Assembly (NCBI RefSeq): GCF_005930495.1
Contig: NZ_SJEX01000027.1
Coordinates: 1 to 52,997, forward strand
DNA from: Modestobacter excelsi
GTDB lineage: Bacteria; Actinomycetota; Actinomycetes; Mycobacteriales; Geodermatophilaceae
Reading direction: 5' to 3'
Length of the DNA stretch: 52,997 bases
A program made the position numbers and the translations under genes. The notes under the pieces are model-generated. The model was not told the origin of the DNA. It worked only from the letters and a program-made list of their open reading frames with translations, and ran no database searches. Position 1 is the stretch's first letter. Every line of letters starts with the position of its first letter. Below are positions 2,971 through 52,997 of this stretch, one piece after another.

Positions 2971-3771
2971 ATGAGCGCCGTCCGACTGGTCACCTTCAAC
3001 CTGCACCACGGCGTCGGGGACGACGGCCGGCACGACCTGGTCCGGGTGGCCCGGCTGCTCGACGACGCCGATCCCGACGTCATCTGCCTGCAGGAGGTCG
3101 ACCGGCACTTCGGTGGGCGGAGCGAGTTCGTCGACCAGGCGCGGCTGCTGGCCGAGGCGCTGGACCGGGAGCTCGCCTGGGCACCGTCGATCGACGAGGC
3201 CTCCCGGGGCGGCCGGGCGGAGCGGCGGCAGTACGGCAACGCACTGCTGTCACGGTTGCCGGTGCGGAGCTCCGAGGTCCACCCCCTCCCCGGGAGCGGC
3301 GAGCCACGCAGCGCGCTGCGCGCCCGGCTGCAGCTCGCCGGGAGCGAGCTCGAGGTCGTGACCACCCACCTGTCCAGCCAGTCGGCCGCCGACCGGGCGG
3401 CGCAGGCCGCCACCATCGCCGGTCTGCAGGGGCCAGGGGGCCCGCCGACGGTGGTGGTCGGTGACCTCAACGCCGACGCCGGTGCCCCCGAGCTGGACGC
3501 GCTGCGCGAGCGGTTCGCCGACGCGTGGGAGCTGGCCACCGACCGCAGCGACCAGGCCGGCCGGTTCTCGCTGCGCGGGGGCCGGGGCCTGACCCACCCG
3601 GCGCGGCGACCCCGGGTGCGGATCGATCAGGTGTGGGTCTCCCCGGGGGTCTCGGTCGCCGACGCCCGGGTGCTCGACGGCTCGGCCTCCTCCGACCACC
3701 ACCCGCTGCTGGTCGACCTGGTGGTCGCACCGGCCGCTAGGCCGTCTGGAGCTCCCGCAGACGCTGGCTGA
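2971..3771 (+). CDS. Endonuclease/exonuclease/phosphatase (EEP) family protein
   Basis: 266-aa enzyme of the DNase I-like EEP fold, a Mg-dependent phosphoesterase family covering nucleases, sphingomyelinases and lipid phosphatases. Motifs seen: FNLHHG near the N-terminus, ICLQEVD with the metal-binding Glu near residue 35, GDLNADA near 163, and the C-terminal SSDHHPLLVDL with the catalytic Asp-His. No signal peptide. The ATG at 2971 lies 11 nt after the PhoD-like gene, so the two are probably co-transcribed, giving a two-hydrolase phosphoester unit. Its 3' end overlaps the 3' end of smc by 35 nt tail to tail, and no terminator fits between them. The substrate is unknown. Confidence 0.86.
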   Translation: MSAVRLVTFNLHHGVGDDGRHDLVRVARLLDDADPDVICLQEVDRHFGGRSEFVDQARLLAEALDRELAWAPSIDEASRGGRAERRQYGNALLSRLPVRSSEVHPLPGSGEPRSALRARLQLAGSELEVVTTHLSSQSAADRAAQAATIAGLQGPGGPPTVVVGDLNADAGAPELDALRERFADAWELATDRSDQAGRFSLRGGRGLTHPARRPRVRIDQVWVSPGVSVADARVLDGSASSDHHPLLVDLVVAPAARPSGAPADAG

Positions 3772-7303: not shown

Positions 7304-7484
7304 GGTGGAGAGACTCCTGGAGGGGTACGACAGTCCTGCTCAGCGCAGGGTCGCCCCATGATGACCGAGAGCGTGCCGATCGCCCCTCGATCGCGTGATC
7401 AGAGGGGTGCGTGGTGACGCTGTGCCGCGTCGGCCCACGGCCCCGCCGCGGGGGCCCACCACGAGCGAGGTGACCTGCTGGAAC
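7304..7484. other. Intergenic spacer upstream of smc
   Basis: This 181-nt spacer lies between the smc start and structured element A. It shows the smc ribosome-binding site and imperfect CGATCG/GATCA motifs near 7378-7402, but no convincing ORF, tRNA or riboswitch. It presumably holds the smc promoter, whose boxes I cannot fix. Confidence 0.4.
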
Positions 7485-7542
7485 GGCCCCCTTCCAGGGG
7501 CCCACCCTGAGCGTGCGAAGGGTGGGGAGGAAGGGGGTCCTT
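7485..7542 (-). repeat. Structured 3'-end element, copy A
   Basis: 58-nt element read on minus, starting 2 nt after the stop codon of the 63-aa coiled-coil gene. Layout: AAGGA; outer arm CCCCCTTCC; TC; inner arm CCCACCCT; loop TCGCACGCTC; inner arm AGGGTGGG; CCCCT; outer arm GGAAGGGGG; CC. Both stems pair perfectly (9 and 8 bp). Five related copies occur in the window at 12642, 16912, 20081, 34627 and 49423. No T-run follows. Confidence 0.85.
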
Positions 7543-12641: not shown

Positions 12642-12697
12642 GGCCCCGTCCAGAGGCCCGTCCCGAGCTTGCGAGGGATGAGGAGGGCGAGGTCCTT
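12642..12697 (-). repeat. Structured 3'-end element, copy B
   Basis: 56-nt copy on minus. Its first A is the last base of the recG stop codon. Layout: AAGGA; CCTCGCCC; TC; CTCATCCC; loop TCGCAAGCTC; GGGACGGG; CCTCT; GGACGGGG; CC. The outer arms pair at 7 of 8 positions with one wobble, and the inner arms carry one mismatch and one wobble. This is the most decayed copy, and it lies between two same-strand genes, recG and rsmD. Confidence 0.82.
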
Positions 12698-16717: not shown

Positions 16718-16909
16718 GTGGCTGCCGTGTGCGACGTGTGTGGCAAGGGCCCCGGTTTCGGCATGTCGGTGTCCCACTCGCACCGCCGTACGCCGCGCCG
16801 TTGGAACCCGAACATCCAGGCCGTGAAGGCCGTCGTCGGTGCCGGCACCCGCCGCCGCATCAACGCCTGCACCTCCTGCATCCGCGCGGGCAAGGTCGTC
16901 CGCGGCTGA
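16718..16909 (+). CDS. rpmB: 50S ribosomal protein bL28
   Basis: 63-aa large-subunit protein. It begins [15 protein letters not shown] and has two CxxC pairs (C5-C8 and C51-C54), so this is the zinc-binding (C+) paralogue. GTG start at 16718, with GGGAG 11 nt upstream. Divergent from the DhaL/recG operon as in other actinobacteria. Followed by structured element C and then a strong hairpin. Confidence 0.97.
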
Positions 16910-16911
16910 AC

Positions 16912-16967
16912 AAGGACCCCGTCCTCCTCGCCCCTCGCACGCTCGGGGCGAGCCTCTGGACGGGGCC
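16912..16967 (+). repeat. Structured 3'-end element, copy C (best-paired)
   Basis: 56-nt copy on plus, starting 2 nt after the rpmB stop. Layout: AAGGA; outer CCCCGTCC (16917-16924); TC; inner CTCGCCCC (16927-16934); loop TCGCACGCTC; inner GGGGCGAG (16945-16952); CCTCT; outer GGACGGGG (16958-16965); CC. Both 8-bp stems are perfect but differ in sequence from copies A, D and F, with matching changes in both arms. Confidence 0.88.
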
Positions 16968-16980
16968 GAAGAGCGCGACG

Positions 16981-17014
16981 AAGACCCCGGAGGCTCGATG
17001 GCCTCCGGGGTCTT
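16981..17014. terminator. Strong bidirectional hairpin between rpmB and the kinase-like gene
   Basis: A 14-bp perfect stem (arms 16981-16994 and 17001-17014, starting AAGACCCCGG) with a 6-nt loop lies between two convergent genes. There is only a short T-content after the stem (TCTTCT on plus), as is common for high-GC terminators. Confidence 0.8.
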
Positions 17015-17022
17015 CTGCGTGC

Positions 17023-17649
17023 TCAGGTGCCGATGCCGCGGGCGCGGGCGGCGGTGACCACCAGCTCGACCACCGCGTCGTGCGGCAGGGCCGTGCTGTC
17101 GACCACCAGGTGGTAGTGCCGGGACTCGGCCGGGTCGCAGCGGTAGAAGTGCCGCACGTAGGCGACCCGGGCCCGGTCGGCGGCCTCCTGCTCGCGGCGC
17201 ACCTCGTCCTCCGGGCGGCCGGAGTGCGCGACCGCGGCGGCCAGCCGCCGCCCCGGCGGCCCGTCCAGCCGCACGTGCAGCACGTCGGGGCGGTCCCGCA
17301 GCACCATCGCCGCCGCCCGGCCGAGCACCACCCCACCCGGTCCCTCGACGATCTCGCCGAGCACCCGCTCGGTCTGCACCCGGTAGGCCCGCTCGTCGGG
17401 GAGCGCGGACGTCGGGAGCACCCCGCCGACCGGGTCGGGCATCGTGCCCAGCGAGCTCACCAGCCGCCACAGGCCGCGGGTGACGGTCTCGTCGTTGGCC
17501 TCCGCCTCGGCGACGGGGACCCCCAGCCGCCCGGCGACCTGGGCCGGGATGACCCGGTCGTGGAAGGGCAGCCCCAGGCGCTGGGCGACGGCCGGGGCGA
17601 TCTCGGCACCGCCGGCACCGAAGGACGCCGACACGGTCACGACGCCCAT
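17023..17649 (-). CDS. Cytidylate kinase-like family protein
   Basis: 208-aa protein of the cytidylate-kinase-like P-loop family. It starts MGVVTVSASFGAGGAEIAPAVAQRLG, a modified P-loop (SFGAGG rather than GPSGSGKGT), and contains GRAAAMVLRDRPDVLHVRLDG, equivalent to the NMP-kinase core strand. The true NMP substrate is not readable. ATG at 17649; it overlaps the GNAT gene end by 13 nt, and thiL-GNAT-kinase form an overlapping trio. Confidence 0.75.
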   Translation of the reverse strand: MGVVTVSASFGAGGAEIAPAVAQRLGLPFHDRVIPAQVAGRLGVPVAEAEANDETVTRGLWRLVSSLGTMPDPVGGVLPTSALPDERAYRVQTERVLGEIVEGPGGVVLGRAAAMVLRDRPDVLHVRLDGPPGRRLAAAVAHSGRPEDEVRREQEAADRARVAYVRHFYRCDPAESRHYHLVVDSTALPHDAVVELVVTAARARGIGT

Positions 17650-20080: not shown

Positions 20081-20138
20081 GGCCCCCGTGCAGGGGCCCG
20101 CCGCGAGCTTGCGAGTGGCGGGGGGCACGGGGGTCCTT
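20081..20138 (-). repeat. Structured 3'-end element, copy D
   Basis: 58-nt copy on minus, starting 2 nt after the stop of the gene at 20141 and lying between convergent genes. Layout: AAGGA; CCCCCGTGC; CC; CCCGCCAC; loop TCGCAAGCTC; GCGGCGGG; CCCCT; GCACGGGGG; CC. The outer 9-bp stem is perfect and differs from copy A by G-C/T-A swaps on both arms. The inner stem has one A-C mismatch. Confidence 0.85.
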
Positions 20139-33922: not shown

Positions 33923-34627
33923 GTGGGACAGCCTAACCCCGTCGCGGTCCTGGACAAAGCCGTGGCCATCCTCCGCGCCGTGGCCGACGAACCGGCCAGC
34001 CTCGCCGAGCTGGTCGCCCGGACCGAACTGCCCCGCGCCACCGCGCACCGGCTGGCGACCGCGCTGGAGGCCCACCGCCTGCTGCGGCGCACCACGGCCG
34101 GCGCGTGGGCACCCGGACCGGCCCTCGCCGAGCTGGGCCGCGGCGGTGCCGACCTGTCCGAGCTGGCCGGCCGGCACCTCAGCGCGCTGCGGGACGCCAC
34201 GGGCGAGAGCGCGCAGTTCTACGTGCGCGACGGCGGCAGCCGGATCTGCATCGCCGCCGCGGAACGCTCCTCGGGGCTGCGCGACACCGTGCCCGTCGGC
34301 GCCCGGCTGCCGCTGACCGCGGGCTCGGCCGCGCACGCCCTGCTCGCCTTCGCCCCCGCCGAGGAGGTCACCCCCCTGCTGCCGGCGGCGAGTTTCACCG
34401 CCCGGACGCTGCTGGACGTCCGCCGCCGCGGCTGGGCGCACAGCGTCGCCGAGCGGGAGGCCGGCGTCGCGTCGCTCTCCGCGCCGGTGCGGGACGGGGC
34501 CGGCGGGGTGCTGGGCGCGGTGTCGATCTCCGGGCCGGTGGAGCGGCTGGGCCGCCGGCCGAGCCCGGAGGTGGTCACCGCGGTGCTCGAGGCGGCCGTG
34601 GCGATCTCCCGCGCGGCCCGCTGCTGA
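33923..34627 (+). CDS. ndgR: IclR-family regulator NdgR/LtbR
   Basis: 234-aa IclR regulator with an N-terminal winged helix-turn-helix (roughly residues 9-50, [18 protein letters not shown]) and a C-terminal effector domain (about 80-225). Divergent from leuCD, as NdgR (Streptomyces) and LtbR (Corynebacterium) are; those control branched-chain amino acid and related genes. GTG at 33923. Its stop is shared with structured element E. Confidence 0.92.
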
Positions 34628-38139: not shown

Positions 38140-38212
38140 TAGCCCCGAAGGGATTCGAACCCTCGCTACCGCCGTGAGAGGGCGGCGTCCTGGGCCGCTA
38201 GACGACGGGGCC
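38140..38212 (-). tRNA. tRNA-Glu (CTC), copy 1
   Basis: 73-nt cloverleaf on minus. The anticodon loop reads CTCTCAC with anticodon CTC; the T-arm has TTCGAAT. 5' and 3' acceptor arms are GGCCCCG and CGGGGCT plus A, giving a G1-U72 end pair. Identical to copy 2. No encoded CCA. Confidence 0.95.
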
Positions 38213-38277
38213 GTGATCGCGCCGTCGATCCTGGCACGTGCGGCCGGGCGACGCGCGCAGGAGTCCGGAGACGACGA

Positions 38278-38307
38278 GAGCTCCCGACCCGGATGGGTCG
38301 GGAGCTC
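38278..38307 (-). terminator. Terminator of tRNA-Glu copy 2
   Basis: 13-bp perfect stem GAGCTCCCGACCC / GGGTCGGGAGCTC with a 4-nt loop, 9 nt past the tRNA copy 2 3' end. It is a variant of the copy 1 terminator. Confidence 0.85.
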
Positions 38308-38316
38308 CGTCTCGTG

Positions 38317-38389
38317 TAGCCCCGAAGGGATTCGAACCCTCGCTACCGCCGTGAGAGGGCGGCGTCCTGGGCCGCTAGACGACGGGGCC
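38317..38389 (-). tRNA. tRNA-Glu (CTC), copy 2
   Basis: 73 nt, identical to copy 1 base for base, 104 nt further upstream in the minus-strand direction. It has its own terminator, so both are separate units or a partly read-through array. Confidence 0.95.
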
Positions 38390-38456
38390 CCAGGCAGTGC
38401 TGGTGCTGCTCGGTGGTGCTGTGGTGCGGTCGTGCTGAGGAGGTGGATCTTCCTCG

Positions 38457-38528
38457 CTGGGGTACCAGGACTCGAACCTAGACTAACGGAACCAGAAACC
38501 GTCGGGCTGCCAATTACCCCATACCCCA
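38457..38528 (-). tRNA. tRNA-Gln (CTG)
   Basis: 72-nt cloverleaf on minus starting TGGGGTATGGGGTAATTGG. Anticodon loop TTCTGGT, anticodon CTG; T-arm TTCGAGT; 3' end TACCCCA plus discriminator G. There is a T-T pair at the base of the anticodon loop. TACAGT on minus at 38562-38567 may be its -10. Confidence 0.94.
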
Positions 38529-49422: not shown

Positions 49423-49480
49423 AAGGACCCTCCTGCCCCCCACCACTCGCCAGCTCGCGGCGGGCCCCTGCAGGAGGGCC
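49423..49480 (+). repeat. Structured 3'-end element, copy F
   Basis: 58-nt copy on plus, 2 nt after the stop of the membrane-protein gene, between convergent genes. Layout: AAGGA; CCCTCCTGC; CC; CCCACCAC; loop TCGCCAGCTC; GCGGCGGG; CCCCT; GCAGGAGGG; CC. Outer 9-bp stem perfect and again different from other copies; the inner stem has two A-C mismatches. Confidence 0.85.
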
Positions 49481-49517: not shown

Positions 49518-51140
<1,623 letters not shown>

Positions 51141-51141
<1 letters not shown>

Positions 51142-52997
51142 CAGACCTGCCCCTCTCCGAAGACCGGCCGCACGTCGCGCGCGGCCAGGATCTCGTCGTT
51201 GCTCGCGCCCGCGGCGACCATCGGCCACACCTGGGCGTCGGAGCCGACGATGAAGTCGATGACCACCGGGGCGTCGTTGATCGCCATCGCCTTCTCGATC
51301 ACCGCGTCGACGTCGTCCCTGCTCTCGCAGCGCAGGCCGACGCAGCCCAGCGCCTCGGCGAGGGTGACGAAGTCGGGGATGCGGACCTGCTTGGGCGAGC
51401 CGTCACCGGCGCCGTGCGTGCTGAGGTGGGTGTTGGAGTAGCGGCCCTCGTAGAAGAGCGTCTGCCACTGCCGGACCATGCCGAGGTTGCCGTTGTTGAT
51501 GACGGCGACCTTGACCGGGATGCCCTCGATGGCGCAGGTGGCCAGCTCCTGGTTGGTCATCTGGAAGCAGCCGTCACCGTCGATGGCCCACACCGTGGTC
51601 TCCGGCCGGCCGTACTTGGCGCCCATCGCGGCCGGGACGGCGTAGCCCATCGTGCCGAGCCCACCGCTGTTGAGCCAGGTGCCCGGCTTCTCGTAGCGGA
51701 TGAACTGCGCGGCCCACATCTGGTGCTGGCCGACGCCGGAGGCGTAGACCGCGTCCGGGCCGGCAATGGCGCCCAGCCGCTCGATCACGTACTGCGGGGA
51801 CAGCGCGCCGTCCTCCGGCCAGTCGTAGCCGAGCGGGTAGCGGGCCCGCCAGTCCTCCAGCTGCTCCCACCAGGCGGTCAGCTCCGGGGTGCGGCCGGCC
51901 GCGTGCTCGGCGCGCAGCGCGCTGACCAGCTCGGCGATCGTCGCCTTGGCGTCGCCCACGATCGGCACGTCGGCCCGCCGGTTCTTGCCGATCTCGGCCG
52001 GGTCGATGTCGGCGTGGACGACGGCGGCGTTGGGCGCGAAGCTCGACAGCTCGCCGGTGACCCGGTCGTCGAAGCGGGTGCCGAGGGCGACCAGCAGGTC
52101 GGCCTTCTGCAGCGCGGTGACCGCGGTGACGTTGCCGTGCATCCCGGGCATGCCCAGGTTCTGCGGGTGGCTGTCCGGGAAGGCGCCGCGGGCCATCAGC
52201 GTGGTGACCACCGGCGCACCGGTCAGCTCGGCCAGCTCGGCCAGCTCGGCGCTGGCGCCTGCCTTGAGCACCCCGCCGCCGACGTAGAGCACCGGCTGCC
52301 GGGCCCCGGCGATGAGCGCCGCGGCCTCGCGGACCTGCTTGCCGTGCGGACGGGTGGTCGGCTTGTAGCCGGGCAGGTCGATCCGCGGCGGCCAGCTGAA
52401 GTCGGTGCGCGCCTGCAGCACGTCCTTGGGGACGTCGACCAGGACCGGGCCCGGGCGGCCGGTGCTGGCCAGGTGGAAGGCCTCGGCGATCCGCTGCGGG
52501 ATCTCGTCGGCGCTGGTGACCAGGAAGCTGTGCTTGGTGACCGGCATCGTGATGCCGCGGATGTCGGCCTCCTGGAAGGCGTCGGTCCCGATGGACCCGG
52601 TGGACACCTGGCCGGTGATGGCCACGATCGGCACCGAGTCCATGTAGGCGTCGGCCAGCGGGGTGACCAGGTTGGTCGCACCGGGGCCGGAGGTGGCCAT
52701 GCAGACCCCGACCCGGCCGGTGGCCTGGGCGTACCCGGTCGCGGCGTGGCCGGCGCCCTGCTCGTGGCGGACCAGCACGTGCCGGATGTGGGAGTCGAAC
52801 AGCGGGTCGTAGAGCGGGAGGATCGCCCCGCCCGGGATGCCGAACGCGACCTCGACCCCGACCGCCTCCAGGGAGCGGACCAGGCTCTGCGCACCGGTGA
52901 TGCCGGTGGCCGGCTCGGCCGCGGCCTCGGCCATGGTCCGGGCGGTGGTCTCGACGCCGAGGGTCGCGGCGGCGGCGGCCTCGCTGGGGGCGGTGGG
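51141..52997 (-). CDS. ilvB: Acetolactate synthase large subunit (partial at the right edge)
   Basis: ThDP-dependent catalytic subunit making acetolactate and acetohydroxybutyrate. The frame is open to the window edge (618 codons without a start decision). An ATG at 52934 would give 597 aa ([18 protein letters not shown]), but 21 upstream codons have coding character, so the true start is probably outside. Marks: [12 protein letters not shown], the catalytic Glu in [12 protein letters not shown], and the ThDP-binding GDG-NN region ([23 protein letters not shown]). Confidence 0.96.

Follow-up and report, generated by a model that had tools for sequence, protein, structure and literature searches.

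Does a covarying hairpin that recurs behind stop codons act in messenger RNA (mRNA), or is it DNA that spreads from gene end to gene end? The question is raised by six short elements fused to gene 3′ ends in a 52,997-nucleotide stretch of Modestobacter excelsi (NCBI RefSeq assembly GCF_005930495.1, contig NZ_SJEX01000027.1, positions 1 to 52,997 of the forward strand), hereafter the window. The original prediction took their covariation as direct evidence of a functional RNA and offered four options: a factor-assisted terminator, an mRNA 3′ stabiliser, a protein-binding site, or a mobile hairpin like the repetitive extragenic palindromes (REPs). The last option is supported by our analysis, since the family proved to be dispersed and prone to turnover; the functional-RNA reading overall is partly supported. 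We put at roughly 60% the probability that the elements form a palindromic repeat family of about 58 bp which is mobile, lies mostly behind stop codons in the direction of the gene, and is moved, in single-stranded folded form (probably the antisense strand), by an enzyme other than a REP transposase.

The six copies, their positions, strands and common plan were all confirmed, and are given here with their scores against a covariance model (R1) built from the six themselves; subtype names A and B were coined in this analysis.

7485..7542, minus strand: element copy 2 nt past a stop codon, upstream of a gene whose product has SMC_N and SMC_hinge domains, then the tail GTTCCAGCAGGTCACC; 86.1 bits
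12642..12697, minus strand: element copy with imperfect pairing, in the gap from recG to a Cons_hypoth95 gene (which we take to be the family of rsmD), its first A doubling as the final base of the recG stop; 69.4 bits
16912..16967, plus strand: element copy of subtype B, stem GTCC/GGAC, 2 nt past the stop of the 63-aa gene 16718-16909 (presumably rpmB, ribosomal protein bL28, judging from its sequence); 75.6 bits, -35.1 kcal/mol
20081..20138, minus strand: element copy of subtype A between convergent genes; 83.1 bits
34627..34684, plus strand: element copy that shares its first A with the end of the stop codon of an IclR-family gene; 85.7 bits
49423..49480, plus strand: element copy of subtype A, 2 nt past a stop, between convergent genes; 81.2 bits

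Each copy reads GAAGGA, outer arm, YC, inner arm, TCGCNNGCTC, inner arm, CCYCT, outer arm and CC(G). All six are fused to a stop codon, as had been claimed; the finer detail is that AAGGA begins 2 nt after the stop in four of them, and that in the copies at 12642 and 34627 the stop TGA overlaps the first A of the element.

The six are part of a large family. R1 recovered them at 69-86 bits, and the only further matches in the window (E up to 10), of 15 and 13 bits, lie antisense over two of the six. In the whole genome (5.26 Mb, 178 contigs), 149 of the best 150 candidates match, that is, at least 149. The window together with forty 20-kb stretches (853 kb), the latter taken from long contigs already known to contain matches, holds 46 matches at E up to 1, of which 42 reach 46 bits or more; scaled from the 36 in the 800 kb outside the window, we estimate about 240 copies per genome. 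The covariance-model scan that the original prediction had proposed thus yields many matches in both genome (42 in 853 kb) and family. All 22 congeners searched carry the element, as do 101 of 112 genomes and 9 of 12 genera of Geodermatophilaceae; the 11 genomes in which it was not found comprise nine drafts from three genera, plus G039 and G067. Counts per genome cover the best candidates only, and a family-genome count of 49 means at least 49. Hundreds of copies per genome are estimated for Modestobacter and many relatives. Genus g18 has 13 of 23 genomes with at least 49 copies and three with 0, 2 and 4. G039, G067, G055 and G045 have 0-5 copies each, in contrast to sister genomes rich in the element.

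Within the order, to which the R1 searches were confined, the element is nearly restricted to this one actinobacterial family: none of 16 genomes from other families matched, and in an order-wide sample of 397 genomes, 76 matched, 73 inside the family and 3 outside with one or two copies each. The outside copies lie on records L157, L159, L160, L162 and L163 of three genomes, where contamination or transfer is possible. A wider scan of 84,980 species with the exact pattern of one subtype returned 26 stretches, all from Modestobacter, Blastococcus, Geodermatophilus or Klenkia, genera for which the family offers a marker of genome dynamics. Plasmid and phage records had no match to the single query copy at 20081. 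No description of this repeat family was found in titles and abstract openings of the literature, and in the accessible part of a paper on Geodermatophilaceae (PMC9686282) "palindromic" concerns clustered regularly interspaced short palindromic repeats (CRISPR) only. For the statistics that follow, matches of at least 46 bits were kept and weaker ones dropped, giving 149 copies: 42 of 46 from the own genome, 53 of 62 from congeners, 36 of 40 from named records, which were retrieved with a one-subtype pattern and are therefore not a random sample, and 18 of 22 from two genomes of other genera. The loop TCGCNNGCTC is exactly kept in 125 of the 149.

To judge from aligned sites, these copies bear the marks of dispersed DNA that has been gained and lost. 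Across ten Modestobacter genomes, 14 of the 47 window stops are filled in at least one genome and none in all, in a survey that scored all but 61 of 470 cells, missed nested copies and counted a copy between convergent genes at both stops. Genes were called with a simple open-reading-frame caller, which missed 16718-16909; its stop was entered by hand. A sense copy is found at 13 of the 14 filled stops. Behind recG, a bare GTGA stop/start overlap in G007, G001 and G003 corresponds to an uninterrupted subtype-A copy in G008, G021 and G019, and in G006, G020 and G010 to a subtype-A copy that shares this outer stem and whose loop is split by a subtype-B copy in antisense orientation. In record L126, from Geodermatophilus, the copy within the loop of another is sense, and by a strict test 3 of the 149 copies are nested. 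At the 20081 site of G005 and G021, 57 of 58 bases are identical to the window copy in inverted orientation, and it is the convergent gene's stop to which the copy is fused there; the flanks share 74-82% identity. The claim that copies are always sense to their gene thus stands for the window and fails generally, given the antisense and nested copies of relatives. A further site is empty in the window:

51141..51144, minus strand: stop of ilvB (acetolactate synthase large subunit) overlapping the start of ilvN (small subunit), without element

This bare TGATG overlap is shared by G018 and G020, and G014 and G005 have short element-free forms; in five of nine relatives (G006, G007, G008, G021 and G009) the order is stop, element, spacer, start.

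The covariation is real, yet it does not point to the mRNA. In the six-row alignment 92.9% of cells are paired (shuffles: 81.7%), and 7 pairs have changes in both partners. The 46-row alignment from the 853 kb, which was fitted to R1 and hence biased toward pairing, has 91.0% against 74.8%, and 118 double-changed cells, where shuffles give 36 and slid partners 1-22. The covariation originally reported is thereby borne out. Folding energies are less uniform: compared with 200 shuffles, three of the six copies fold clearly better (0-1 shuffles as good), those at 34627 (17/200) and 49423 (13/200) are marginal, and that at 12642 is no better (176/200).

Predicted folding favours the antisense strand. 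It is more stable in 145 of the 149 copies with RNA parameters (mean -37.2 against -30.1 kcal/mol for sense) and in 141 of 149 with DNA parameters; among control 58-nt stretches behind other stops it was more stable in 376 of 695, and in 60 of 117 among strong hairpins. A selected mRNA hairpin should have more G·U than A·C intermediates, and the opposite was observed. On the mRNA strand, A·C and G·U number 68 and 11 in alignment A2 (46 rows) and 102 and 8 in A3 (62 rows), an excess that stems mostly from two inner-helix positions, most copies having a conserved A·C mismatch in that helix. With three columns excluded, namely these two and the first outer pair (misregistered in 57-nt copies), G·U against A·C is 15 to 25; with all columns it is 19 to 170. 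In the same DNA, 33 tRNAs have 49 G·U and no A·C among 704 pairs. Seen from the antisense strand, each A·C is a G·T or G·U pair and the loop is GAGCNNGCGA, in which tandem G·A pairs may form. Sense-RNA function as the source of the covariation is rejected as the leading explanation by this strand test and the folding, and the original step from covariation to a functional RNA is not supported. Matched changes might also arise if repair copied one arm from the other. Covariation within a repeat need not imply a functional mRNA structure; the strand test favours the other strand.

The most striking feature of the family is its precision at stop codons. A copy was counted as fused when a stop preceded by at least 60 open codons lay 0-8 nt upstream of the first GG of the hairpin. 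This holds for 114 of the 149 copies (37/42 in the own genome, 39/53 in congeners, 28/36 in named records and 10/18 in the two genomes of other genera) and for 1280 of 20,000 random noncoding positions in the own-genome sample (6.4%). The stops are TGA in 92, TAG in 16 and TAA in 6; a selenocysteine-type hairpin is ruled out by the use of TAG and TAA. The distance from stop to GG is 4 nt in 72 of the 114 and 1 nt in 14. In the 134 copies with a recognisable foot, positions -7 to -5 are T (52%), G (82%) and A (56%), position -4 has no preference, and G (80%), A (82%) and A (98%) follow. The commonest junction is accordingly TGA-N-GAAGGACC, the second T-GAAGGACC, in which the last two bases of the stop are the element's own GA. 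Of the copies that lack a stop, many sit inside or beside another copy, or run antisense to a gene.

Copies take the direction of their gene, not that of the replication fork. In G008, a genome of one contig, 86 of the 147 copies listed are on the leading strand, against 113 of 203 long frames (p = 0.66, assuming the origin at the first gene, presumably dnaA from a motif that it contains), and no replication-strand bias was seen among the copies listed. One region of this contig (G008:C1, 1.96-2.52 Mb) holds 1 of the 147 copies listed, other 280-kb bins up to 18. We know of no mobile element that uses a stop codon as its address with such precision. A DNA enzyme cannot read frame, which leaves either insertion coupled to translation or selection for exact spacing.

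These observations are most likely explained by non-autonomous mobile hairpins. Insertion, and not recombination between copies, would make most new sites; the mobile substrate would be the antisense single strand, handled by an enzyme that reads structure. REP transposases would be the first suspects for repeats of this sort, but their Y1-type domain (PF01797, E up to 0.001) occurs in none of the 112 family genomes, in a search whose control was positive in 5 of 14 known genomes. We lean slightly toward precision that comes from targeting to translated gene ends and not from later selection, since copies private to one genome are mostly at stops (about six of eight in the window by our own reading, which tips the balance weakly). 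A more specific form of this proposal, in which the machinery recognises a mark of the terminating ribosome or a ribosome-free nascent transcript and an enzyme unlike the REP transposase moves the folded antisense strand, is offered tentatively. The sense hairpin in mRNA would then be a passenger of the 3′ untranslated region that could slow the last ribosome or 3′-5′ exonucleases; by analogy with what is reported for REPs near stops, it may have a regulatory side effect.

Several results weigh against mobility of this kind. The longest word common to both flanks equals the shuffled value (134 copies), and in the absence of a detectable target duplication insertion is deduced from site comparison and not from a signature; the ATGA and GTGA repeats at ilvB-ilvN and recG, considered as target duplications, were rejected as start/stop overlaps present at two sites only. 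No enzyme that would mobilise the element was found, and no parent transposon or full-length insertion sequence with the same ends was seen in the 2.1 Mb of DNA fetched, a sample short of whole genomes; there, profiles of the two halves built from 131 of the 149 copies placed a 3′ half within 30 nt of 135 of the 142 detected 5′ halves. Different variants fill sites in about half of the ten species, and could be old elements replaced by recombination. Targeting by DNA sequence alone cannot recognise an in-frame stop, and selection after insertion is possible; copies without a stop mostly have no stop-like triplet at that position, as judged by eye, and a smaller share of copies is fused in the two-genus sample (10/18) than in the own genome (37/42). 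Finally, the sense hairpin still folds at about -30 kcal/mol, and the copy at 49423 occupies a spot where element-free relatives keep a different hairpin that the window lacks in intact form. The two together make an RNA role at some sites possible.

Recombination is the first alternative to be weighed: the repeats could be an old family whose copies spread and changed through mutual gene conversion and slippage, true transposition having played little part. We regard this as possible, if somewhat unlikely. It would account for the differing stems at one orthologous stop, for chimeric copies, for the detection of 175 3′ halves against 142 5′ halves, and for a tail, GTTCCAGCAC.TCACC, that follows a minority of copies at position 0 and is sometimes repeated with 3′ halves in short arrays:

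7469..7484 of the window, minus strand: tail GTTCCAGCAGGTCACC directly 3′ of the 7485 copy
3573-3677 of record L043, plus strand: tail example
1562-1600 of record L048, minus strand: tail example

Gene conversion fits poorly with nested copies whose host copy is uninterrupted in relatives, or with the sense-nested copy of the Geodermatophilus record, and species with 0-4 copies beside species with at least 49 suggest gain at new sites.

Exact spacing could also be what is selected. With the hairpin base inside the footprint of the terminating ribosome, the element might be a translational brake that slows termination or triggers trans-translation, only its spacing from the stop being kept. The commonest spacing, TGA-N-GAA-GG (72/114) without base preference at -4, is compatible with such selection, and PMC5082802, citing other work, reports that REPs at most 15 nt from a stop stall ribosomes. 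We nevertheless consider a brake unlikely: the strand concerned has the weaker predicted fold, orthologous stops are mostly without the element, and no copy was found in G039 or G067. Behind 178 stops of the element-free G067 there is no frequent 9-mer, and hence no substitute repeat family was seen.

A factor-assisted terminator or an mRNA 3′ stabiliser, acting as the sense hairpin and spread by selection, is in our view more doubtful still. The sense orientation directly behind stops, the strong covariation, the sense fold near -30 kcal/mol and the replacement of the relatives' different hairpin at 49423 all suit it, and E. coli REPs are described as stabilising mRNA and acting in termination (PMC5082802, citing others). 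Against these stand the better antisense fold (145/149) and the lack of a G·U excess. For termination in particular, copies lie within operons, at the ilvB-ilvN junction in five of nine relatives and, in the window, at that of recG with the Cons_hypoth95 gene, and 4 of 20 tandem copies in the own genome end 17-25 nt before the next called start. Tandem and convergent neighbours stand at 20:12 with the element and 463:236 without it (p = 0.70; 32 of 42 copies classified). No T-run follows the hairpin in the six window copies, as originally noted, nor in 45 listed copies judged by eye, and no terminator-like site was found across 16800-17100. Downstream of the 16912 copy there is a further, distinct hairpin:

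16981..17014, strand unassigned: hairpin AAGACCCCGGAGGC...GCCTCCGGGGTCTT

A hairpin like it is present in most relatives shown, with or without the element, and a separate hairpin also persists at the 49518 site of G018. Because copies occur within operons, are not enriched at convergent ends and have no T-run, a strong terminator is unlikely, and the terminator option of the original prediction is disfavoured. Very improbable, lastly, is a terminator or insulator of antisense transcripts that come in through the gene's 3′ end: the antisense strand does fold better and the element does end at the stop codon, but by consensus an antisense transcript would continue UUC-N-UCA with no U-run, and 20 of the 32 classified copies lie between tandem genes.

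The mobile-hairpin reading invites comparison with known repeats. According to PMC3733652, REPs are high-copy palindromes of 20-40 bp, mostly downstream of coding regions, uneven among strains and sometimes arrayed, and the termini of GTAG REPs often supply a TAG stop. Like REPs and bacterial interspersed mosaic elements (BIMEs), our element is a short, imperfect, high-copy palindrome, mainly extragenic and downstream of genes, unevenly distributed and at times arrayed. It differs in its 58 bp and bulged two-part stem (REPs have 20-40 bp), in a hairpin foot of GAAGGA instead of a GTAG/CGTC tag (consensus foot NGAAGGACC...GGCCG, 134 copies), in stop fusion in 114 of 149 copies, and in the lack of a Y1 transposase domain in 112 family genomes. 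Membership in the system of REPs and REP-associated tyrosine transposases (REP/RAYT) was rejected, there being neither the GTAG/CGTC tag nor PF01797 in those genomes. Mycobacterial interspersed repetitive units (MIRUs) are described in PMC12548453 as short actinobacterial repeats, apparently mobile, that insert at start codons with -4 nt coupling. Our element, too, is a short actinobacterial repeat that appears mobile, and sites with and without it were seen at two stop/start overlaps, GTGA and TGATG; unlike MIRUs, it also follows stops of convergent genes (12 of 32 classified copies), and most of its tandem copies leave at least 17 nt to the next start. The element is best filed as a family-specific variant of mobile palindrome that resembles REPs or MIRUs in part.

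Other categories fit less closely. With intrinsic terminators it shares a G+C-rich hairpin behind a stop, and differs in its conserved loop and internal loop, the missing T-run, operon-internal copies and variable presence at orthologous sites. From miniature inverted-repeat transposable elements (MITEs) it differs in that no target-site duplication was detectable around its copies (134 copies). Integron attC sites fold as bottom-strand hairpins with variable paired arms, and lie directly behind the stop in the gene's orientation; by eye, the consensus of our element has no GTTRRRY/RYYYAAC ends, and its copies are scattered and not in cassette arrays. In Rfam the element has no match at the gathering score, either in the scan of the window, where tRNAs alone reached that score, or in a permissive scan of the 16912 copy (16880-17030), where all matches were far below it.

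Two minor features of the window may be recorded. A row of two tRNA-Glu genes of identical sequence and one tRNA-Gln gene lies at 38140-38528 on the minus strand. Upstream of the gene after ilvN, at 50569-50588 on the minus strand, there is an inverted repeat that is a near-form of GCTTTATCGCGATAAAGC and looks like an operator; GCTTTATCGCGATAAAGC itself occurs in several congeners, and at the same spot G005, G021 and G009 have other inverted repeats.
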